The notes under the pieces are model-generated. The model had not been told where the DNA came from. It saw nothing but the letters and a program-made list of their open reading frames with translations, and did not search any database. Position numbers and translations under genes: made by a program. From Candidatus Sulfopaludibacter sp. SbA3 (GTDB lineage Bacteria; Pseudomonadota; Alphaproteobacteria; Caulobacterales; Hyphomonadaceae), in assembly GCA_945888325.1 (NCBI GenBank), contig CAMDAC010000024.1, forward strand, positions 1 to 46,709: a stretch of 46,709 nucleotides of DNA, given 5' to 3'. Shown here one piece after another: positions 23,298 to 35,229 of this stretch; position 1 is the stretch's first letter, and the number at the start of each line of letters is the position of its first letter.

Positions 23298-24146
23298 CTG
23301 AGAGTCTTAGTCATAAAAACCGTCAATAAATCAGCCACTTGCGATTCGCCGGGTGATGAACCGGATGTTGGCGGTGAAGAGCCATGCGACGGCGCTTTCG
23401 AGGGATTTCTCCCGGTCTTTTGCGAGGCTGCGTGAGCGCCCGAGCCAGGCGAGCGTGCGCAGGGCGCCCCGTCGCCGCGGCAGGACCTCGAAACCTCAGG
23501 CCTTGCGGAACCTCCGGATGATTTCTAAGTTCCATGCTTCCATCTTCCGGGGCGCGCCGCGTAGTTTGTCCCCGGCATATCCGCCACCGGCCACGATGTG
23601 GCGCAGCCAGAGGAAACGATCGCGCGCTTCGGCGAGGACAGCCGCGCGCCATAGCGGTCCCGGACGTCGGCTGCGTGGACGCATGCGGGGACCAGAAATC
23701 CTTCCGTATCAGTGGGAATATGCCGCTTGCGTCCGTTCACCTTCCTGCCGGCGCCTTACCCTGATATTGCGCCACTTTCTGTCGACTTCATGCTCTGGCT
23801 GTCGATCACGCCAGCTGTCGGCTGAGGCGAGCGGCCTGCTGCCTCGCGCGCCTCGAACAGAAAGTGGTGGCGGACCTGTTCCAGCAGCCCCGGATCGCGC
23901 CATCGGCAGAAGTATTTCCGGGCCGCCGGAAAGGGCGGGATATCCTCGGGTAACATCCGCCACTGGCAGCCCGCCGAGACCCTGCAGAGCAGCGCATTGA
24001 CCACTTCGCGGAGGTCGCTCCTGCAAGGACGCGCAGCATCTTTCGCCGCTGGCAAATGGGGCGCCGGATTGGAGAAGGCCGTTTTGAAGCAACTATTTCC
24101 CGCTGCTTTGAATCTTCAAGGCATTTTTTTATTGTCGCTCCCTCAG
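23298..24146 (-). mobile_element. Decayed IS5-family insertion sequence
   Basis: The interval holds the remains of an IS5-type transposase. Tentative, imperfect terminal inverted repeats are CTGAG-A-G..ATAAAAA at 23298-23319 and its inverse, ending in TTTTTTTATTGTC..CTCAG, at 24124-24146. The ends are approximate because the repeats match poorly; I could not identify a target duplication. The element lies between the AAA ATPase and ParA-like genes, marking the edge of the accessory region. Confidence 0.55.
23337..24100 (-). pseudogene. IS5-family transposase, frameshifted remnant
   Basis: Conserved blocks of an IS5 transposase are readable in order but in different frames. The N-terminal block has SDLREVVNALLCRVSAGCQWRML, PPFPAARKYFCRWRDPGLL and the first catalytic Asp in AGVIDSQSMKSTESG. 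A second block reads NGRKRHIPTDTEGFLV and HAADVRDRYGAR (second Asp). A third reads WLRHIVAGGGYAGDKLRG. The end block is GFEVLPRRRGALRTLAWLGRSRSL, where the usual WVVERT around the catalytic Glu is changed to GALRT. An in-frame stop precedes GFEV and there are at least two frameshifts, so it cannot encode an active enzyme. Confidence 0.8.
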
Positions 24147-25855: not shown

Positions 25856-26644
25856 TCAGGCCTCGATCAGCTTCGCCCGCAAATCGGCTTGCAACGCGGC
25901 ATCGACGTTCAGCACATCCACCAGATACCCATCCAGCGACCCCGCCCTGGCATTGATCGCACCAAACGCCCGGTCGAGATACTTCAGGTGCACACCCATG
26001 AAAGGGCGATAGACTTCCGCCGGCAGGTCCTTGCCAATCATCTGGTTGAAATAGGCCGCCGCTTCGGGCAGCCGCTGGTTCACGCCGACGGCCTCGTTGG
26101 TCAGGTCGTAGTCCGACCGCATATCGGCTTCGGACACGCCCAGAATGTGGTGCGTCAGGGCACAGAGAATGCCCGTGCGGTCCTTGCCCGCAGCGCAGTT
26201 CACCAGCCCCGCCGCCTCGCCCGGCGCTTCGGACAACTTCACGAACCAGTCGCGGAACAGGGCCTGGTGGTGCGCCTTGAAGGGGGCCTTTTCGTAATAC
26301 TCGGCCATCCACTCGTCGGCAGCCTCGGCATCGACGGTGACCTGCGTCAGGAACCGCATGTGCGGCGCCTCGCTCTCGCGCCCGCCATCGTGGGTGATCA
26401 CCACCGGCGGATTGAACCGGCTCTTCTGCTTGTCGCGTTCATCGGGGCGCCGCAGGTCCGCCTGCACATGGATGCCGAGCGCGTCCATCCTGGCGAGCTC
26501 TTCCTCGCTCGCCTCGGCATGATGGCCTGACCGGTACAGCCGCCCCATCCTCACCCGCCCGCCAAACCGGCTGTCATATCCGCCAAAATCGCGGAAATTG
26601 CGGATCGTTTCAAAGGCGAGCAGGCGCGGGCGTTTGTTTGTCAT
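25856..26644 (-). CDS. Tyrosine/serine protein phosphatase (PF13350-type)
   Basis: 262 residues from the ATG at 26644; an earlier in-frame start adds 21 unlikely residues. The HCX5R catalytic loop reads NCAAGKDRTG with nucleophile Cys150 and Arg156. The upstream NFRDFGGY and GRLYRSGHHAEASEEE segments and the general-acid region place it in the bacterial tyrosine phosphatase family that includes MptpB-like and phosphoinositide-active members. It is cytosolic with no signal peptide. It diverges from the RyR-domain gene 113 bp away. Substrate is unknown; a link to the neighbouring TIR operon is possible only by position. Confidence 0.88.
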   Translation of the reverse strand: MTNKRPRLLAFETIRNFRDFGGYDSRFGGRVRMGRLYRSGHHAEASEEELARMDALGIHVQADLRRPDERDKQKSRFNPPVVITHDGGRESEAPHMRFLTQVTVDAEAADEWMAEYYEKAPFKAHHQALFRDWFVKLSEAPGEAAGLVNCAAGKDRTGILCALTHHILGVSEADMRSDYDLTNEAVGVNQRLPEAAAYFNQMIGKDLPAEVYRPFMGVHLKYLDRAFGAINARAGSLDGYLVDVLNVDAALQADLRAKLIEA

Positions 26645-26757
26645 GCCCCCGAGGTAAATCGCACCCGCCCGGCCGTCCAGTGACATTGCAGTGTCACGCA
26701 GGGGCAAGCAGCAACCGCCCCCTTGCCCCCCGCGCGCAATCCCCCGAAACTCCTCCC

Positions 26758-27111
26758 ATGCCTCTTCCGACCGACCATCTCGACGCCGTCGCCCGCACCG
26801 TCCACGAAGCCCTGCGCGGCTGGGCCGCTGCGCATGGCCAGCACGACATCCCCGCCTGGGACGAGGCGCCGGACTGGATGCACGCCTCCACCCGCGAGAG
26901 CGTCCGGCACGCCCTCGAACACGATGCCCCGGACGGGCGTACGCAGCATGACCAGTGGCTAGCCCAGAAGGTCCGCGATGGCTGGACCCACGGCCCGGTG
27001 AAGGACGCCGCCGCCAAGACCCACCCGCTGATGGTGCCCTACGATGACCTGCCCGAATGGGAACGCCGCAAGGACGCCCTGATCAACGCCCTCGCCCGCG
27101 CCCTCGCCTGA
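26758..27111 (+). CDS. Single RyR-domain protein
   Basis: 117 residues from the ATG at 26758; the frame extends upstream but without a start supported by a ribosome site. The domain is clear: a helical entry (AAHGQHDIPAWDEAPDWM), ARTRESVRHALEH-like helix, QHDQWLAQKVRDGWTHGPVKD, then the conserved HPLMVPYDDLPEWERRKDAL end block. RyR domains were first defined in ryanodine receptors; bacterial stand-alone copies occur in predicted nucleotide- or NAD-derived signalling contexts, but their ligand is not established. It converges on the DUF1353 gene of the TIR operon with only 9 bp between stops. Confidence 0.85.
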   Translation: MPLPTDHLDAVARTVHEALRGWAAAHGQHDIPAWDEAPDWMHASTRESVRHALEHDAPDGRTQHDQWLAQKVRDGWTHGPVKDAAAKTHPLMVPYDDLPEWERRKDALINALARALA

Positions 27112-27120
27112 AGCCGTGCC

Positions 27121-27717
27121 TCAGACGGCAGCTGTCTTCCCGCGCTTCGGCTTAGGCGGCGCCCAGCTGATATCCGTGTTGCCATAGGGTGGGTCGACCG
27201 GATCGCCGGACTCGGCATCCACGAACTTCCAGTCATCCTTCAGTCCGTACCCGCCGCCGCCGAAAAGTCGCACCATCCGGTACATCAGCGAGCGCCGGAA
27301 TCCCGGCACGCCGGCATCCTTCATCGCGTTGAGGAACAACCGGTCAGCCAGCCGCCGCGCCTTCTTCTGGCCGATGGCATAGAGATAGTCATGCAGCACC
27401 GCGGCCGGCGCATGCCGCCCGAACGGCTGCACAATGAAATGGAAGATCGACGGGATCGACGCAAAGTCCGTCACGAAGCCGAGCGGCACCTCTACCGTCA
27501 CGTCCACTCCATGGACCGGATGCACATAGGCATACGGCCGCGTCACCACCGCCAGCGTGCGCCCCTGCTTTTCCATGTCCGACAGGATCGCCACGGCAAT
27601 CAGGTGCCGGCGCACCTCGCCCCGCCCCACATGCGTCGCCTCGCGCTTCGCCTGCACACTCTCCAGGCCTGAAGACTCCAGGTCCATCACGCGCGGCGAC
27701 ATATCCACGAAAGGCAT
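27121..27717 (-). CDS. DUF1353 protein, last gene of TIR operon
   Basis: 198 residues. The DUF1353 core has VEVPLGFVTDFASIPSIF followed by AAVLHDYLYAIGQKKARRLADRLFLNAMKDAGVP: conserved Asp (TDFAS), His and Asp (HDYLY) and Asp (ADRLF). The pattern suggests a metal or hydrolytic site, but no function is known. The family is common in phage structural and lysis regions. Residues 1-45 precede the domain and 160-198 form a Pro/Lys-rich tail. A strong AAGGGGAG ribosome site lies upstream of the ATG; the gene is 23 bp after the protease gene, so it is co-transcribed. Confidence 0.85.
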   Translation of the reverse strand: MPFVDMSPRVMDLESSGLESVQAKREATHVGRGEVRRHLIAVAILSDMEKQGRTLAVVTRPYAYVHPVHGVDVTVEVPLGFVTDFASIPSIFHFIVQPFGRHAPAAVLHDYLYAIGQKKARRLADRLFLNAMKDAGVPGFRRSLMYRMVRLFGGGGYGLKDDWKFVDAESGDPVDPPYGNTDISWAPPKPKRGKTAAV

Positions 27718-27740
27718 CGGTCACTCCCCTTCAGCTGCGC

Positions 27741-29528
27741 CTAAGGCGTGCTCAATCCCTTGGCCAGCCGGAACGCATTCAGCAGCGGCCGCAGCCACAG
27801 GCCCTGGTTGGCGTGATACTGCCCCGGCTGGCCGTTCAGCCGCGGCCGCAACCCGCCGGCGTGGTGCAGCCCGATCAGCTCCATCGTCCGGCTGTTGAAC
27901 ACCGGGCTTCCGGAATTTCCGGGCTCTGTCGGCGCCAGGTAATGCAGCCGTCTCGGCTCGGGACCAGGCACCGTGCCGACACGGACATTTTCGTAGTCGA
28001 GCAACTGGTTGTCACTGAGGGAAATCGAAAGTTCCCGCCCGAGCGGATACCCGATGACATACACAGTGGTCGGCTTATCGACATACTGGCGCTGCCCGGT
28101 CTTGCTCTCCACCTCTTCGCGCTGCTTGAGCTTCGGCAAACCCTCTGCCAGCTTCAGCATGGCGCCAAGACTGCGCAGGTCCGCATATCGCGGCGTATTC
28201 TGCCCTATGCGGAAAATCGACACATCATGCTCGGTCTTTGGCGAGCTCCATAACAGTTCATCCAGCGGAAACTCGTCTGTGAAGCTTGCCGCATCGAACC
28301 GGATCCGGCCGTCTCCCGGCGCCATCGCCGCCCGGTCCGCCGGATCGGGGGAGACGACATGCGCATTCGTCAGGAACAGGACCTCATCTTGAAAGGAGGC
28401 ATGCACGCTTTCGCCGTTCAGCAGGAAGCCTGTGCCGAACGTCGCATCGCGCGATTGCACCGTATCCATCATAACCCGCCCGACCGTACGGGAGTATTCG
28501 ATGATCTGTTGCAGGCGCCGGATGCCGTAGGGGCCTTCCTTGCCGAACACTTTCTCATACTGGCCCTGCGCGCCGGTGGCCGCCTGCGTTCCCGCCACCT
28601 CTCTCGCCCCGCCACCTTCCGGCGGCGCCAGCAACTCGCGCGCCTGGACACTGCTCAGCCGGATCGCGCCCTGGTCCGACGCCATCAGCGCATAGCGCAG
28701 CAGGTTGGTGATCTCTGCCTTGTCCGCGTCGCCCGGCGTGATGCCCCACACCTGCTCGAACTGGCGCAACGTGCCGTTGATCGCAAACGCGTCTCCTTGC
28801 GCCAGTTCCAGATAGCGCCGGATCTTCTCCTTCGCCTCTTCCCAGCGCCCGAGATGGGCATACGCCTCTGCCGCCGAGGCGACATGCCAGTAGTCCGCGG
28901 TATTGTCCGGATCCAGACTATTGATGATCTCGTTGGCAATATCGTTGGCCGGCACCGCAAGTGGCAGGAAATACTGCTCGCGCTGCGCCATCGCCGAAAG
29001 CGCCAGCAGGTTCCCTCCCGGGAAATAGGCTCCCGCTGAGCCCCGCAGCCGCGCGAATGCAAACCCGTAGGCCGCTGCCGACTTCTTCAGGAACCCCTCG
29101 CACGCATCCCGCGCCGCCGGTGGCCGGCGCTGCGAGGCAATCACGAAGAGCTGCTTGTAGACACGTCCTTCAAGGCTCCAGCAGTCCGCCTCGGTTGCGG
29201 CGTCCGCCTCTTCCTGCGCCGCCTTGCGCGCTTCCAGCACCAGCGCGGCCGCCGGGATCAGTGCATTGCGTTCCACCAGTGCCTGCGCATGGAACTGCAA
29301 CAGCCAGCCCCGCCGCACACCGACCGCTTCGAGAAACTGCGCCGCCAGCTCCAGCGCCGTGTGTGCCCGCATCGTGCGCAGCGCCTTGAGCCCCGCACGC
29401 AGCTCTTTCGATCCGCTATCCTGCGACGTGATCACGGCGTCGGCGAGCGCCGCCGCCTTGGCTGCCAGTTCGGCCTCATTGCCAAGGGCCGCCGCCTGAA
29501 GATCACCAAGAGCCTGCGCCAGGGTCAT
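27741..29528 (-). CDS. TRAFs-binding (TPR-like) domain fused to trypsin-like protease
   Basis: 595 residues, two parts. Residues about 1-290 are helical; the block at 118-180 (LEGRVYKQLFVI, then FLKKSAAAYGFAF, AGAYFPGGNLLALSAMA) matches the TRAFs-binding/TPR-S region that recurs in predicted conflict and signalling proteins. Residues about 345-560 are a trypsin-fold protease with His390 (FLTNAHVVS), Asp435 (TEHDVSIFRI) and Ser539 (EPGNSGSPVF); the catalytic triad is intact. No signal peptide, so cytosolic action is expected. The TAGGAG ribosome site overlaps the upstream muramidase stop codon (29538-29540), indicating coupling. I infer that the helical part senses a signal or partner and gates proteolysis. 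Confidence 0.85.
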   Translation of the reverse strand: MTLAQALGDLQAAALGNEAELAAKAAALADAVITSQDSGSKELRAGLKALRTMRAHTALELAAQFLEAVGVRRGWLLQFHAQALVERNALIPAAALVLEARKAAQEEADAATEADCWSLEGRVYKQLFVIASQRRPPAARDACEGFLKKSAAAYGFAFARLRGSAGAYFPGGNLLALSAMAQREQYFLPLAVPANDIANEIINSLDPDNTADYWHVASAAEAYAHLGRWEEAKEKIRRYLELAQGDAFAINGTLRQFEQVWGITPGDADKAEITNLLRYALMASDQGAIRLSSVQARELLAPPEGGGAREVAGTQAATGAQGQYEKVFGKEGPYGIRRLQQIIEYSRTVGRVMMDTVQSRDATFGTGFLLNGESVHASFQDEVLFLTNAHVVSPDPADRAAMAPGDGRIRFDAASFTDEFPLDELLWSSPKTEHDVSIFRIGQNTPRYADLRSLGAMLKLAEGLPKLKQREEVESKTGQRQYVDKPTTVYVIGYPLGRELSISLSDNQLLDYENVRVGTVPGPEPRRLHYLAPTEPGNSGSPVFNSRTMELIGLHHAGGLRPRLNGQPGQYHANQGLWLRPLLNAFRLAKGLSTP

Positions 29529-29537
29529 GTCCCGCTC

Positions 29538-31418
29538 CTAATCCACATAAGCCGCAAAGGGCGTATTCTCGGGCGTTATCTCTACAGGCACCGTTTCGAA
29601 GTCACTGTGTGTCCCGCCCTCGCCGGTGGCGTTCTCCAGATCCGTCACCCGGTTCAGCCAACCCTTGAGGAACACGCCCTGGCTCGCATCCCTGGCGACG
29701 ATACGGTGAAACAGCGCCCGGCGTTCTTCGAGATACTGCGCCGCCAGCGCCTTCGTCTCGTACCGCGCGATCGCCGCAAACGTCTGTCCGCCAATCGCGC
29801 CGTCCACTTTCAGCGTCTCGCCCAGCGCATTCAGCGCGCGCTGCAGCAGCCTGGCGGCCCCGCCCGGCCCATGGTTCACGCTGGCATCGAACATCAAGAG
29901 GTCCAGCTGCCGCTTCAGCCGGTCACACCGCGCCGCCAGCCAGTAGTCGGACCAGTAGATCGCCCGCACCTCATCATGCGTGATCTCCTTTACCGGGCGC
30001 AGCGGCTCGCCCCGCGAGTCAAGCCATTCATGGAACACCTTCTCGGTGACGCCGTAGTTCGTCTTGCCGCCCCGGTCGCTCGCATGGTCGCTGTAGCCGC
30101 CCTCCCACTTGAAGCAGAACTTCAGCGCCGTCTCGAACCGGTCCGCTGGAGGTGGTGGAGGGGGAGGCGCCGCCGGTGCCAGGGGTGCCCGGTCCGCTTG
30201 CGATGCCGGTGCGGCCGGCACTGAAGGCTGGGCCGTCTTTGCCGTCTCTGTCCTGACGCTGATGGTCTTGCGGATGGCGCCCGGCAAACTGTCCAGCGCG
30301 CCGGAGTTCCAGGCATCCTTCAGTGTACGGAACGCCAACCTTGCCAGCGGGCTCTCCAGCAGGGATTCGTGATCGCCCGCGCCCTTGGCCACCAGGTATG
30401 GCCGCACCGTTTCCACCATCTCCGCCGCCTGCTGCTGCAGCCGTTGCCGGTCCGCGCGGATCAGATATGGCGACAGCGCGACCACCCGGCGAAACGCGTT
30501 CAGCGCCTCGTCCGGCTGCCCGCCGCTCTCCAGCACCCGCTGCAGCGACACCCAGGCATCACCCACCGCCGGCACGTCCTCGATATTCTGGTGGCGCTCG
30601 GTCGCCGTCACCCGGATCACCGCATAGTCCCGTCCGCGTACGGACTTGCCCTTGATCCGCAGCGCCGGCACCAGCCGTCCGCCGCTGAAGTCGAGCTCAA
30701 CCTCGCCATTGGCCTGCCCGTCCGGCAGCATCACATAGTAGCCGGGCTCCAGTTTCAGGCTCGCGGACACCGGCACCCGCAACCGCGTCGTGTAGGTGCC
30801 ATCCTGCGCCTTCAGGATCCGCGCGATTTCAACGGCAGCGGTATAGCCGATCTTTTTGACAAACGTGCTGGCCAGCTTGCCGGTGATAGCGCCCGCCGCC
30901 GTGGCGAGCAGGCTCTCGTGCCCCTCGCCGTTGTCATCCTCCGGCTCGCCCGGCGGCGGCTGGCCGCCCATCTTCGGCAGCGAAGCCGAGAGCCGTTCGT
31001 TGAGGTCCAGCAAGGTCGCCAGCAGCGCTTCCGAGCGCAGCGCCAGCACCACGAATTCGCCGTCGATCCCGCCCTGCCAGGGCATCTGCGCGCAGATCGA
31101 GGTGACCCCCAGGTCCTGGTTGCCGGCATTCTTGGTCTCGATGCCGTCGCGCACCTTGCGCGGGTCGATCAGGGCGCTCTGGCGCAGCTTGGTCTGGACC
31201 TGCGTCACCGCCGACAGGTCAGACAGGAACAGCGCATGATACTTGCTGGTCAGCAGGCCTGGCCGGGCAAGGCCAAGGTCGATCAAGTCGAGGCTGACAT
31301 ACGCCGCATCCGATTCGATCACTCCCACCGGCGCATCTGCGCCGATGATCGCCGCCTTCACCCAGCGCGTCGACCGCTTCGGCGCTCCGAACGAGCCCGC
31401 CGTCTTTTTATCCGCCAT
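29538..31418 (-). CDS. Unknown N-terminal domain fused to phage-type GH108 muramidase
   Basis: 626 residues from the ATG at 31418, which has GGGAG just before it; a GTG nine bases upstream is the alternative. Residues about 1-410 are not recognised: an alpha/beta start, a helical GITGKLASTFVKKIGY stretch and a beta-rich middle (RLRVPVSASLKLEPGYYVML). A Pro-run linker (417-424) leads to a GH108 muramidase with KWEGGYSDHASDRGGKTNYGV (catalytic Glu439), followed by a PG_binding_3-like domain (DASVNHGPGGAARLLQRAL, VDGAIGGQTF). GH108 enzymes cleave peptidoglycan, mostly in phage lysis. There is no signal peptide or transmembrane segment, so access to the wall would need release or a holin-like route. 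Confidence 0.85.
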   Translation of the reverse strand: MADKKTAGSFGAPKRSTRWVKAAIIGADAPVGVIESDAAYVSLDLIDLGLARPGLLTSKYHALFLSDLSAVTQVQTKLRQSALIDPRKVRDGIETKNAGNQDLGVTSICAQMPWQGGIDGEFVVLALRSEALLATLLDLNERLSASLPKMGGQPPPGEPEDDNGEGHESLLATAAGAITGKLASTFVKKIGYTAAVEIARILKAQDGTYTTRLRVPVSASLKLEPGYYVMLPDGQANGEVELDFSGGRLVPALRIKGKSVRGRDYAVIRVTATERHQNIEDVPAVGDAWVSLQRVLESGGQPDEALNAFRRVVALSPYLIRADRQRLQQQAAEMVETVRPYLVAKGAGDHESLLESPLARLAFRTLKDAWNSGALDSLPGAIRKTISVRTETAKTAQPSVPAAPASQADRAPLAPAAPPPPPPPADRFETALKFCFKWEGGYSDHASDRGGKTNYGVTEKVFHEWLDSRGEPLRPVKEITHDEVRAIYWSDYWLAARCDRLKRQLDLLMFDASVNHGPGGAARLLQRALNALGETLKVDGAIGGQTFAAIARYETKALAAQYLEERRALFHRIVARDASQGVFLKGWLNRVTDLENATGEGGTHSDFETVPVEITPENTPFAAYVD

Positions 31419-31524
31419 GGCTCCCACTCCGGCTCAATCTGCGGATTAACGTTATGTTAAACAGGAATTTATGGGAAGCGGGCGAAGTGTGTCGGCCCTG
31501 CGACAGCTCCCATCACTGGCCTTT

Positions 31525-34500
31525 TCACCGGAACGCCCAGCCAAACACGGCTCCCGCGGCCGTCTCCCACCAGGCCGCAGGCGGCGGCGTACACACATCC
31601 TCCCCCTCCCGCCCCCGTAGGATCGGCGCAGCGAAGATCGCCTTATCATCGAGCCGCCGCACGAAAGGTACGCCCTCGGCATCCGGCGTCCCCATCAGCT
31701 TCGCGGCACAGACCTGCGCAATATCCTCGGAGCTGGCCTGCCGCCGCCCGGACCATCCGATGTCCAGCTCGACCAGTCGCCCACCCAGTTCCGAAATCAC
31801 AAGCCGTCCGAGGTCCTGCTGCCAGGCCGCATCCTGATTGGCAAAATCGCCGGACCAACCCGGCAGTTCCGACAGCGTGAGAGTGTCAAACTGGCGGACA
31901 ATCCCGCCCTGAACCAGCACGATCAAGCGGCGGCCGTCATTCGAAAACCTGATCTCAGATTCACCCGACTCGAGGAAGATTGGCTCGCCCCTCGCCGCAC
32001 CGGTCCCCACATCCCAGAACCTCAGATTGGCATCATCGGCAATCGTCACCAACGTCCCGCCATCCGGCGAGAATTTTGCTGCCGTTACAAAGCTTGGGTG
32101 CGCCAGAACAGGCTGCTGCAGCTCACCTGTTTCGAGATCCACCAATGCCGCCGCACGCAACGGGTTGTCCAGCAGAACAGCTGCTCGCCTGCCGTCCGGC
32201 GCCAATGAAGCGCCGACGATCGGAGCGTCTGGCGTGATCACCGGCCAGAGCAGGGCGCCATCATCCGCAGACCAGAAACCGATCCGCGTCTCATTCGAGA
32301 TCGCGACGCGCGACTCATCTGCACTCACGTAAACGCTCGAGAAGGCAAGACTCTCCCCCAAGGCTTTCAGGTCCGCCGGGCTCCAGACCTCCATTGGCCC
32401 GCCGATGGTCGCGCCTGTCTCGAGATCGACAAGCTGCCCGTTGCCCTGTGTCAGGACAACCATCCGTCCACGGACCGGCATCACCCTGAGAACCATATCG
32501 TCGATCACGGCGGGCGCCACAACCGCTTCCATCGTGTCAGTGTTCCAGATCGTCAGCGTGCGATCATATTGCAGCGTCACCAGCCGGCGTCCACCGAGCG
32601 CAAACCGCATTTCACTGATCGCAGACTGATGCTCGAGAAGCGCCTCGCCATTGCTGCCCGTGTTGGTATCGAGCAGCTGAACGACCCCTTCAAAGGAAAT
32701 CGCGAGGCGCGGTGAACCTTCGTCAAAGACGGCCGTGAAAGTCTCCTGCGGGCCGAGCAGCAGCTCGCCGCCCACCTGTTCGCCTGTCGCCGTATCGCGC
32801 AACACGGCCCTGCCCGACGCGTTCCACACCAGCTGCCGCGTCCCGTCCGGTGAGAGCATCGCCCCGTCCGAAGCGCCGATGTCGGTCTTCCCCTTAAACG
32901 GAATCGTCCGCGCCGGCCCCGCTTTCCAAACTCGGGCCTCATTGCCTTCGATCGTTAGCACACGGCTGCCATCCCCGATGAACTGCGGCGGGAACAGGTA
33001 ATTGTCATGCTTCAGCGGACCCAGCAGAGGAATGCCGAAATAGGAGGCGTCCCAGAAGAAAACCTCGTCGTCCTGATCCAACGTCAGGGTGATCCGTCCA
33101 TCCGGTGACAGCGCCGCATGGCCGACGAAACCCACCGAGTCCTTGGCTACGGGGGTTTCTGTCACCTGCCCCTCACTGACGTTCAACCGCACGGTCCGGC
33201 GGCCATTCCAGGCGAGGTAATCCTGCGTGCCGGGAATGGGGCTGACCCCGTTCCACCTGTCCGGGCCCGCATCCAGCTGCGACCCGGACTCCAGCAAGGA
33301 CGTGCCGGTGCGGAGATCCCAGATTTCCACCCCGCTTAGATAGGACACCGAGGCAAACGACGCATCATCAGCGCCGATCTCCACTTCAGTTTCGCGCTCA
33401 TCCGTGGAGATAACATCGCCGACCGGCGCGCCGGTATCTGCATCCCAAATCTGGACACTTCCGACGGGAGAAATTGTGGCAATGCGCCGGAGCTTGTCTA
33501 GGAAAACGGTCCGCTCAACGATATCCGGAAAATCGGCACGCACGAGCCGCTCGCCCGTCTCTCCGTTCCATATCTCGACGCTCTCTGTCTCGGTTTGCAG
33601 CGGAGCGGTCAGATCATCCGCCTGCCGCGCAAGTTCCCAGTCAAACTCTCCACTGTTGCGCCGAAGCAGCACGCGGCTTGCGTCGGGTGAGAGGAAGCCT
33701 CCCCAATACTCCCCGCCTTCTGGGTCAAATGGTCCGGCGATGATCTCTTGGCTCGCCGCGTCCGCAACGAACGCCTCGCCTAGGCGTACGACGAGGACCT
33801 TCGCCCCATCCGCTGACAGCGCCACCTCGATCGAAGGCGCGGCCCGCCCTGGAAACTCCGCGAGCTTGTCTCCTGTCGCGAGGTCGTAGATGCGCACCGT
33901 ACCGTCTGACAGCCCTGCGGCCAGACGCCGGCCATCTTCGGACATGGCAACTTTCATTAGCCCCAGCTCGTCTTCCCCTGCCTCAAGGCCCAGCGGGGCC
34001 GGCAACCGGCTTCCATCGCGCAGCGATATCACATGCGCCCCCGCGCCGTTCCACGCCGCCACATGCGCGCCGCCCGGAGCGAGTTTTTCCTGCAGATTAC
34101 CCTGCTCGGGATCAAGCGTCAGCGTCTCCCCCAGCTGCACGCCGGTTTCTGCATCCCACACGAATAGAGAGTCATAAGGGTTCGCCGTCACCAGCCGGGT
34201 GCCGTCCATCGCAGGGTAAGCCCGCGCGATTACTGGATCGAGTTCGCTGCCCGTCGGAAAACTCTGCCGCACAGACGCCACATGCGCCAGCGCCTGCGCC
34301 GTCTTTGCAAACGCCGCCTTCGCTTCATCCGTAGACGGCCTGAAAAAAGACTCGCGCGACGCCAGGATCGCCATTTGAAGCGCGCGCCGGTATTCGCCCT
34401 GAATGATCAGCTGGTCAGACGTCCGCGCTAGCATAAGGCTCTCGCTGCGTCCGAGATTTCGCTGTCCATTGACCACAAACCACGCGCCAGCGAGCGTCGC

Positions 34501-35229
34501 CGCCAGGGTCGTCAGCACAAAGATCGCCGTCACCCGGCGCCAGAAGGTGCGCACCGAGGCGTCGCGCCGGATCTGCGCGCGCGACGCCGCAATCCAGGCC
34601 AGGAACAGCTCCCCCGGCTCCGGCTCGCCTCTTGGCCGCGTCACGGCCCAGCGCTCGGCCTCCTCGACGGCGCCCTCGCGCAGCAGCCGGCTCTTCGGCC
34701 GCCCGGCCGTGTCCCACTCCTGTACTCGCGCGAAATACTTGCGCCCGTCCCGGTGCCAACCGACTTTCGTTTCCAGCGCTGCCACCAGCCCCGCCAGCGC
34801 CGCGTCAAAACCCGGTCCGCCCTTCGAAAAATCGATCCGCACATTCAGCGCCGAAAGTCTTGGCGGTGCTTTGGCAAAATCCACCGGCCGCGCGAGGACC
34901 GCGATGATCCGCTTGCCCAGCGCGCGGGCATACGCGATCTCCTCGTCGCACACGGCGCTCTGGGCCGAATCCGGCGAGACCAGGAAGACCATCACGTCGG
35001 CCGACGCGATCATCTCCTGCAGCCGTTTCCACCACTCGTCCTCGGCTGAAATCCCGGCGCTGACATTGCCGGGGTCGTGCGCCGCCTGGTCAAAGTCGGC
35101 GAGGAACCCCGCCGTCATCAGCCCGTCCGCCACGCGCTGCACCAGCGCTGCATCCTTGCGCGAATAGCTCAGGAAAACGCGCGTACGCGCATCTTCCGCC
35201 ACCAGCTGACTATCCTCTTGTCCCACCAC
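31525..35229 (-). CDS. TIR-transmembrane-WD40 protein
   Basis: 1234 residues. The N-terminal TIR domain (about 16-155) has VFLSYSRKDAAL and the catalytic-type SAVCDEEIAYARALGKR; Glu97 aligns with the NADase Glu of enzymatic TIRs. One membrane segment follows at about 234-254 (AIFVLTTLAATLAGAWFVV), then a helical region (SESLMLARTSDQLIIQGEYRRALQMAILASRE). The remaining 920 residues hold roughly 18-19 WD40-like blades (for example AMSEDGRRLAAGLSDGTVRIYD), enough for two or more propellers. Known TIR enzymes cleave NAD when activated; the propellers may sense or scaffold. The GTG start follows GGGAGGAG. It heads the operon with the muramidase, 106 bp downstream. Confidence 0.88.
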   Translation of the reverse strand: MVGQEDSQLVAEDARTRVFLSYSRKDAALVQRVADGLMTAGFLADFDQAAHDPGNVSAGISAEDEWWKRLQEMIASADVMVFLVSPDSAQSAVCDEEIAYARALGKRIIAVLARPVDFAKAPPRLSALNVRIDFSKGGPGFDAALAGLVAALETKVGWHRDGRKYFARVQEWDTAGRPKSRLLREGAVEEAERWAVTRPRGEPEPGELFLAWIAASRAQIRRDASVRTFWRRVTAIFVLTTLAATLAGAWFVVNGQRNLGRSESLMLARTSDQLIIQGEYRRALQMAILASRESFFRPSTDEAKAAFAKTAQALAHVASVRQSFPTGSELDPVIARAYPAMDGTRLVTANPYDSLFVWDAETGVQLGETLTLDPEQGNLQEKLAPGGAHVAAWNGAGAHVISLRDGSRLPAPLGLEAGEDELGLMKVAMSEDGRRLAAGLSDGTVRIYDLATGDKLAEFPGRAAPSIEVALSADGAKVLVVRLGEAFVADAASQEIIAGPFDPEGGEYWGGFLSPDASRVLLRRNSGEFDWELARQADDLTAPLQTETESVEIWNGETGERLVRADFPDIVERTVFLDKLRRIATISPVGSVQIWDADTGAPVGDVISTDERETEVEIGADDASFASVSYLSGVEIWDLRTGTSLLESGSQLDAGPDRWNGVSPIPGTQDYLAWNGRRTVRLNVSEGQVTETPVAKDSVGFVGHAALSPDGRITLTLDQDDEVFFWDASYFGIPLLGPLKHDNYLFPPQFIGDGSRVLTIEGNEARVWKAGPARTIPFKGKTDIGASDGAMLSPDGTRQLVWNASGRAVLRDTATGEQVGGELLLGPQETFTAVFDEGSPRLAISFEGVVQLLDTNTGSNGEALLEHQSAISEMRFALGGRRLVTLQYDRTLTIWNTDTMEAVVAPAVIDDMVLRVMPVRGRMVVLTQGNGQLVDLETGATIGGPMEVWSPADLKALGESLAFSSVYVSADESRVAISNETRIGFWSADDGALLWPVITPDAPIVGASLAPDGRRAAVLLDNPLRAAALVDLETGELQQPVLAHPSFVTAAKFSPDGGTLVTIADDANLRFWDVGTGAARGEPIFLESGESEIRFSNDGRRLIVLVQGGIVRQFDTLTLSELPGWSGDFANQDAAWQQDLGRLVISELGGRLVELDIGWSGRRQASSEDIAQVCAAKLMGTPDAEGVPFVRRLDDKAIFAAPILRGREGEDVCTPPPAAWWETAAGAVFGWAFR

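Follow-up and report, generated by a model that had tools for sequence, protein, structure and literature searches.

What function could unite a TIR-WD40 protein, a muramidase fusion, a protease and a DUF1353 protein that are encoded side by side on one strand? This question is raised by the locus described here, which lies within a window of 46,709 nucleotides (the whole stretch of DNA analysed). The four minus-strand ORFs were confirmed (Table 1), and the gaps of 106, 9 and 23 bp reported in the initial annotation agree with their positions, the first being counted from the ATG at 31418, which gives a muramidase of 626 aa; from the GTG start (629 aa), on which all muramidase residue numbers are based, this gap is 97 bp. 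Because the intergenic gaps are small, a single transcript is likely; scans for promoters and terminators of the operon gave no signal above shuffles. As also noted before, an RyR gene converges on the operon, facing the DUF1353 gene across a 9-bp gap. Genome searches found TIR_2 matches at ten places and no second match to the protease elsewhere in the genome, and PADLOC matched no system beyond weak TIR or protease hits. A short minus-strand ORF at window positions 23756-24055 resembles, by eye, a fragment of an IS5-type transposase.

Table 1 Features of the operon and its convergent neighbour, in window coordinates
Feature	Position	Strand	Basis
TIR - transmembrane - WD40 receptor-like protein, 1234 aa	31525..35229	-	ORF, Pfam, hydropathy
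TIR domain	34786..35178	-	Pfam TIR_2
Transmembrane segment, residues 235-253	34471..34527	-	Hydropathy
WD40 sensor cassette, about residues 301-1200	31630..34329	-	Comparison with L097
Pro-muramidase: N-terminal chassis, GH108 and PG_binding_3	29538..31427	-	ORF, Pfam, AF2 model
E171, second candidate cleavage site, in disordered 150-200	30915..30917	-	7/7 where the column is occupied
E354, predicted protease cleavage site in the linker	30366..30368	-	Invariant 18/18; segment 351-354 with pLDDT <50
GH108 muramidase and PG_binding_3 domains, residues 436-594	29646..30122	-	Pfam
E611, third candidate site (weak), in disordered tail 610-618	29595..29597	-	9/18 in the muramidase alignment
TPR-S and V8-like serine protease, 595 aa	27741..29528	-	Pfam, profile matches, triad
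TPR-S region, residues 76-177, predicted signal sensor	28998..29303	-	Pfam
Trypsin-fold (V8-like) catalytic domain, residues 365-554	27867..28436	-	Pfam, V8 alignment
DUF1353, predicted phospholipase A2, 198 aa	27121..27717	-	Pfam, invariant residues, family activity from the available text of PMC11525133
RyR-domain protein, predicted cADPR-degrading or cADPR-binding regulator (H104, W107, H129, D146)	26638..27111	+	RyR E=1.5e-10; available text of PMC13232231

To place the operon in a wider context, the muramidase was searched against 105 genomes of the family, of which 28 matched, many via GH108 alone. From 30 distinct places 20 were fetched, making 21 loci with the window; the nine omitted were short GH108 genes whose 3-kb pieces contained no protease. 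In 14 of the 21 loci (core loci) the muramidase either neighbours the protease or is fused to it, and the GH108 protein is extended at its N terminus (only briefly in L046). L042 and L043 encode the pair as one polypeptide of ~1260 aa in the order GH108, TPR-S, Trypsin_2. The remaining seven loci are GH108-only (L044, L048, L054 and L056), weak hits (L057 and L058) and L041. Outside the close group the muramidase identity to the window drops to 19-38%, and the linkage of muramidase and protease is therefore old. An RyR gene occurs in 13 of the 14 core loci, the exception being L042 on a 10-kb contig. A TIR was found within the fetched stretch in seven core loci (window, L039, L040, L043, L045, L046 and L052) and was not found there in the other seven. 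One locus (L046:2821-18572) has six TIR profile hits surrounding a single muramidase-protease pair.

A profile of the protease retrieved 140 relatives in named genomes, from which 80 loci were kept. In six-frame profile scans, 19 loci have GH108 at most 4 kb from the protease and none has it farther out, the corresponding numbers being 6 and 0 for DUF1353, 7 and 0 for RyR, and 34 and 12 for TIR (iterated profile). An alpha/beta hydrolase is present within 4 kb in 46 of the 80 loci and farther out in one. Binomial tests against the near and far bases gave 6e-7 for GH108, 2e-4 for TIR and 2e-14 for the alpha/beta hydrolase, with loci that are not fully independent. TIR_2 is also the commonest Pfam domain among the 99 contiguous protease neighbours left after removal of the alpha/beta hydrolases (15/99). 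Rather than occurring independently with no repeated neighbourhood, the genes thus recur together in diverged genomes, and the operon represents a mosaic version of a conserved module rather than genes thrown together by chance. This recurrence makes a lysis or abortive-infection system, which the initial annotation had suggested, now the best reading, although that annotation had missed the probable activation of the muramidase by the protease, the phospholipase A2 family of DUF1353, the part of RyR and the other hydrolases.

The protease matches Trypsin_2 (3.6e-17) and, just below the cut-off of 27.6 bits, TPR-S (7.5e-6, 26.9 bits). It had been called a TRAFs-binding protease; the domain is better named TPR-S, since MAP3K_TRAF_bd is absent among the matches at E 0.1. 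Its profile matches SplA, SplB, V8 protease and glutamyl endopeptidases, and it aligns with V8, with the triad H390/D435/S539 and the S1 residues T534 and H555. Across 86 proteases, one from each of 13 core loci and of those 73 among the 80 named loci in which an ORF was called, the His-Asp-Ser triad is kept in all; the S1 Thr position of V8 holds Thr in 83 and Ser in three, and the S1 His is invariant (86/86). Thr and His at these positions presumably set the Glu preference of V8-like glutamyl endopeptidases, so the pair predicts cleavage after glutamate; it is not proof of Glu specificity, because SplA and SplB, which are among the matches, do not all cut after Glu. Two of the proteases (L045:10135-13011 and L050:10403-13318) bear a second trypsin-like domain, and a glutamate before the first trypsin domain (E325) is replaced by Gln in 10 of the 86.

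The likely substrate is encoded next door. The muramidase matches Glyco_hydro_108 (3.4e-25) and PG_binding_3 (2.3e-15), and has the GH108 fold and an E-G-G motif that we take to be the GH108 catalytic motif. It matched 242 phage records, none of which covers more than 80% of the protein, and the eight matches listed begin at residues 429-431; the earlier description as phage-derived is thus upheld for the GH108 domain only and not for the rest. An AF2 model built with 18 sequences (pLDDT 71, pTM 0.50) falls below a pLDDT of 50 at residues 150-200, 351-354, 377-427 and 610-618, among others, and E171, E354 and E611 each lie within such a segment. Of the 49 columns of linker 337-429 that are occupied in at least 12 of the 18 aligned sequences, E354 is the sole invariant one, followed by S355 (15/18). 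ES dipeptides number 26 in the linkers versus 6.7 in shuffles (maximum 15 in 1000), and are only mildly enriched over 24 whole proteins (100 vs 70 expected); they are absent from two of the 18 linkers, those of L046 and L053. Judged by alignment and model, E354 is a candidate P1 residue, conserved and on a disordered regulatory segment, and the protease probably activates the muramidase by cutting after linker glutamates. Elsewhere, L055:9638-11353 encodes a muramidase that lacks the catalytic stretch of GH108 and may be a decoy or have decayed, and L091:9335-10384 and L093:9138-9998 encode lone N-terminal chassis with no protease, TIR or GH108 found nearby.

The same pattern appears to be replicated independently in a non-homologous partner, the alpha/beta hydrolase. 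The 31 aligned hydrolases share a hypervariable insertion (69 columns at 60% occupancy) in which the single invariant residue is a Glu (31/31), followed by Ser in 20 of the 31; the next best insertion column is another Glu (26/31), and at the far edge a further Glu is likewise found in 31/31. HamM offers a counterpart, with two cleavage isoleucines on disordered insertions (available text of PMC12799240). The loci that combine this protease with an alpha/beta hydrolase form a cross-phylum family whose hydrolases are probably gated lipases. L104:8383-11644, for example, has a TPR-S V8-like protease near a hydrolase of ~312 aa with a Glu-bracketed hypervariable insertion, and such loci sometimes have a separate GH108 gene of ~200 aa.

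The TIR-WD40 protein carries, besides its WD40 repeats, a TIR_2 domain at residues 18-148 (E=1.2e-16) that also matches ThsB_TIR (4.3e-5) and the PADLOC ThsB profile (E=6.9e-6); E97 in its C-x-x-E-I motif is presumably the catalytic Glu. Across the six loci compared, identity of the TIR domain is 81-92%. Hydropathy gives exactly one transmembrane segment in each of the six TIR-WD40 proteins, and positive charges are more numerous on its TIR side (five positive residues before and two after the segment in the window), so that the WD40 part should sit outside and the TIR inside. In our reading this is the topology of a Toll-like receptor, with a variable WD40 sensor outside and the TIR inside. 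Compared with L097, the window protein shows 74-100% identity in residues 1-300 and 94% in the final 34 residues, and only 18-44% in 50-residue blocks of the WD40 region 301-1200; conserved ends around a divergent middle indicate that the sensor cassette was exchanged. Among the 14 core loci this TIR-WD40 protein is present only in the window and L039. L040:3486-6971 encodes, 26 bp downstream of the protease, a TIR-transmembrane protein of ~1160 aa without WD40 motifs, and the receptor part outside the membrane may thus be exchangeable for another fold. In L041:7318-10251 TIR, transmembrane segment, WD40 and GH108 form one protein, with no protease within the fetched 20 kb; its predicted topology would place the muramidase in the periplasm.

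Effectors as well as sensors are swapped. The muramidase N-terminal chassis was found in seven of the 80 protease loci, L097 (the same place as L039), L101, L109, L125, L128, L133 and L166 (the same protein as L092). TIR and DUF1353 accompany the core in six of these seven, and RyR does so in five of the six. These loci are called Hyphomonas-type on account of their shared flanks; the record titles read Hyphomonas and also Acidobacteria (L097) and Sulfopaludibacter (L125). L097 is close to the window in muramidase (93%), protease (95%), DUF1353 (94%) and RyR (93%). L133 likewise keeps TIR (92%), WD40 (83%), DUF1353 (88%) and RyR (92%), whereas its core is a single protein of 1427 aa that joins chassis and TPR-S protease to a different C-terminal domain, the protease being ~28% and the chassis ~24% identical to the window; the receptor was thus kept and the effector exchanged. 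No effector domain was found in L125, whose contig stops immediately behind DUF1353. L125, L128 and L133 additionally have a TIR encoded by a small gene of its own. In relatives, the chassis bears other cell-wall domains, either an L,D-transpeptidase-like fold with an H-x14-S-x-G-C motif or a lysozyme-like domain, the latter a weak match below cut-offs.

The remaining two genes point to membrane damage and signal control. DUF1353 (PF07087, 4.2e-27) has H109, D110 and D125 invariant in 7/7 sequences, its second Asp lying at +16 versus +15 in TtaP; a profile search of the PDB listed no match up to E 10. Since phospholipase A2 activity was shown experimentally for the family member TtaP (available text of PMC11525133), the window protein is a predicted phospholipase A2. 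For the small RyR gene beside the core, H-W-H-D recurs at the spacing of H75, W78, H100 and D117 in RyDEP, a comparison of spacing, not structure, in 17 of 17 genes; 44 of 20000 shuffles of the window RyR protein match by chance. The equivalent of RyDEP Q54 is not kept (A83 in the window, and Q at that spacing in one of 15 tested). Animal RyR domains bind adenine nucleotides, so the protein may bind its ligand without catalysis. RyDEP is a phage RyR-domain glycosidase that destroys 2'/3'cADPR (available text of PMC13232231), and the small RyR protein is likely an off-switch that degrades a cADPR-type signal. Long RyR proteins are found in eight of the 14 core loci; the H-W-H-D pattern is kept in three of nine, and an RyR frame in L137 lacks it. 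The three tested (L050:6641-8638, L047:11340-13193 and L154:7177-8982), all beside the core, have two transmembrane segments, and RCK/TrkA_N is found in L154, the RCK domain being absent from L050. They are possibly messenger-gated potassium channels.

Taken together, we propose that the operon encodes a receptor-triggered programmed-lysis system, most likely serving abortive-infection immunity, and give the full chain a probability of roughly 0.55. The membrane receptor would detect an envelope or phage cue through its external WD40 part, and the internal TIR would convert NAD+ into a cyclic-ADPR-type signal. This signal would be sensed by the TPR-S domain of the cytosolic protease, turning on its V8-like activity; the protease would then cut the pro-muramidase after the conserved glutamates in its disordered linkers and free GH108 from the N-terminal chassis. 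The DUF1353 phospholipase A2 might damage the inner membrane, which is a guess, allowing the muramidase to reach the wall and lyse the cell, while the convergent RyR protein would degrade or sequester the signal and set the threshold. The passage of GH108 across the membrane is the weakest step of this mechanism: the muramidase has neither a transmembrane segment by hydropathy nor an evident signal peptide, and a holin was not identified. The RyR neighbour appears to belong to the system, whose core protease pairs with other hydrolases across phyla. More tentatively, the whole may be viewed as a bacterial Toll-like-receptor pathway, with an outer beta-propeller exchanged as a unit, a cADPR-type messenger made by the cytosolic TIR, a TPR-S protease specific for Glu that receives it, wall- and membrane-degrading zymogens that carry out the killing, and an RyR brake that degrades the messenger. 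Such a pathway would form one branch of a cross-phylum family whose shared protease gates alpha/beta hydrolases via a Glu-bracketed insertion.

The same genes could instead form a device for controlled release or secretion, in which muramidase and phospholipase breach the envelope in a subset of cells and so free protein cargo, vesicles or phage-like particles. GH108 TtsA and DUF1353 TtaP are paired in the typhoid-toxin islet (available text of PMC11525133), TtsA is among the GH108 matches, and both families occur in phages. However, no cargo genes were seen in the operon, and the presence of TIR, TPR-S and RyR along with a hypervariable sensor speaks for a signalling conflict system, which makes a release function unlikely.

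TIR NADases can kill alone, and here, too, the TIR might kill by NAD+ depletion, with protease and muramidase as a parallel or secondary arm independent of any TIR signal; that the TIR-WD40 is a separate protein, encoded across the 97-106 bp gap, fits such an arrangement. A diffusible signal is suggested instead by the small separate TIR beside the core in three loci and by the neighbouring RyR gene of a cADPR-acting family, and killing by the TIR itself seems similarly improbable. More doubtful still is that the glutamates serve structure or binding, that the protease acts on phage or host proteins, and that the muramidase works by dose or oligomerisation rather than cleavage. The caspase-like protease of type IV Thoeris does degrade cellular proteins (available text of PMC12847820), but a Glu that stays invariant while the disordered linker around it is poorly conserved, and the repetition of this pattern in a non-homologous partner, argue for cleavage.

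If programmed lysis through protease-activated muramidase is correct, cell-wall zymogens would join the effectors of TIR immunity, bacteria would gain a receptor with the same arrangement as the Toll-like receptors of animals, and host RyR-domain genes would acquire a role as messenger brakes. It would also explain the pairs of TPR-S protease and hydrolase in records titled Proteobacteria, Bacteroidota, Acidobacteriota and Planctomycetota. Because the prediction names individual cleavage residues, it can be put directly to the test. To our knowledge, no earlier immune system kills by proteolytically unleashing a peptidoglycan hydrolase.

Several known systems share parts of this design. ASK-signalosome-like TPR-S systems were reportedly described by Burroughs and Aravind in 2020, with TPR-S proposed as a sensor of NAD-derived signals; we know of no GH108/DUF1353 pairing from that work. 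Our literature search found no system that combines TIR-protease signalling and proenzyme cleavage with wall hydrolases, a receptor in the membrane and an RyR brake. As to Thoeris, the operon has a TIR (ThsB) but neither ThsA (SIR2-SLOG or TM-macro) nor a caspase-like protease, the partners being TPR-S/trypsin, GH108 and DUF1353; for a cADPR-type signal connecting TIR and effector, the RyDEP-like RyR neighbour gives an indirect hint only. In type IV Thoeris, a TIR produces N7-cADPR that activates the caspase-like protease, and here likewise a TIR gene adjoins a protease presumably activated by a TIR signal; the differences from the system as given in the available text of PMC12847820 are a V8/trypsin rather than caspase fold, a dedicated pro-muramidase substrate and a TIR in a membrane receptor.

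Peptidoglycan attack has been predicted as an effector of protease-containing conflict systems in the form of EAD1-lysozyme effectors (Kaur 2020, PMC7159879); these use a different adaptor domain, and the available text does not contain the words muramidase, TPR-S or DUF1353. Like the operon, the typhoid-toxin islet encodes a GH108 protein (TtsA) together with a DUF1353 protein (the phospholipase A2 TtaP), but it serves toxin secretion, and the five genes named in the available text of PMC11525133 include no TIR, protease or RyR. The window RyR has H-W-H-D at a spacing identical to that of RyDEP (available text of PMC13232231); unlike the phage protein, it is host-encoded beside a TIR gene and is thus a probable self-regulator, not an evasion factor. 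There is also a parallel in logic with the nuclease-protease pairs of HamMAB / Avs, in which a trypsin-like protease likewise accompanies a pro-enzyme with conserved cleavage residues on disordered insertions, the two cleavage isoleucines of HamM lying on such insertions (available text of PMC12799240). That system has an MBL nuclease and cuts after Ile, and its protease forms a fusion with HamA or with another defence protein. No MBL-fold domain was found by Pfam in the four proteins of the operon (for TIR-WD40, among the 25 of 34 families listed), which in contrast combines a muramidase or other wall domain, predicted Glu cuts, a TPR-S sensor and a TIR partner.
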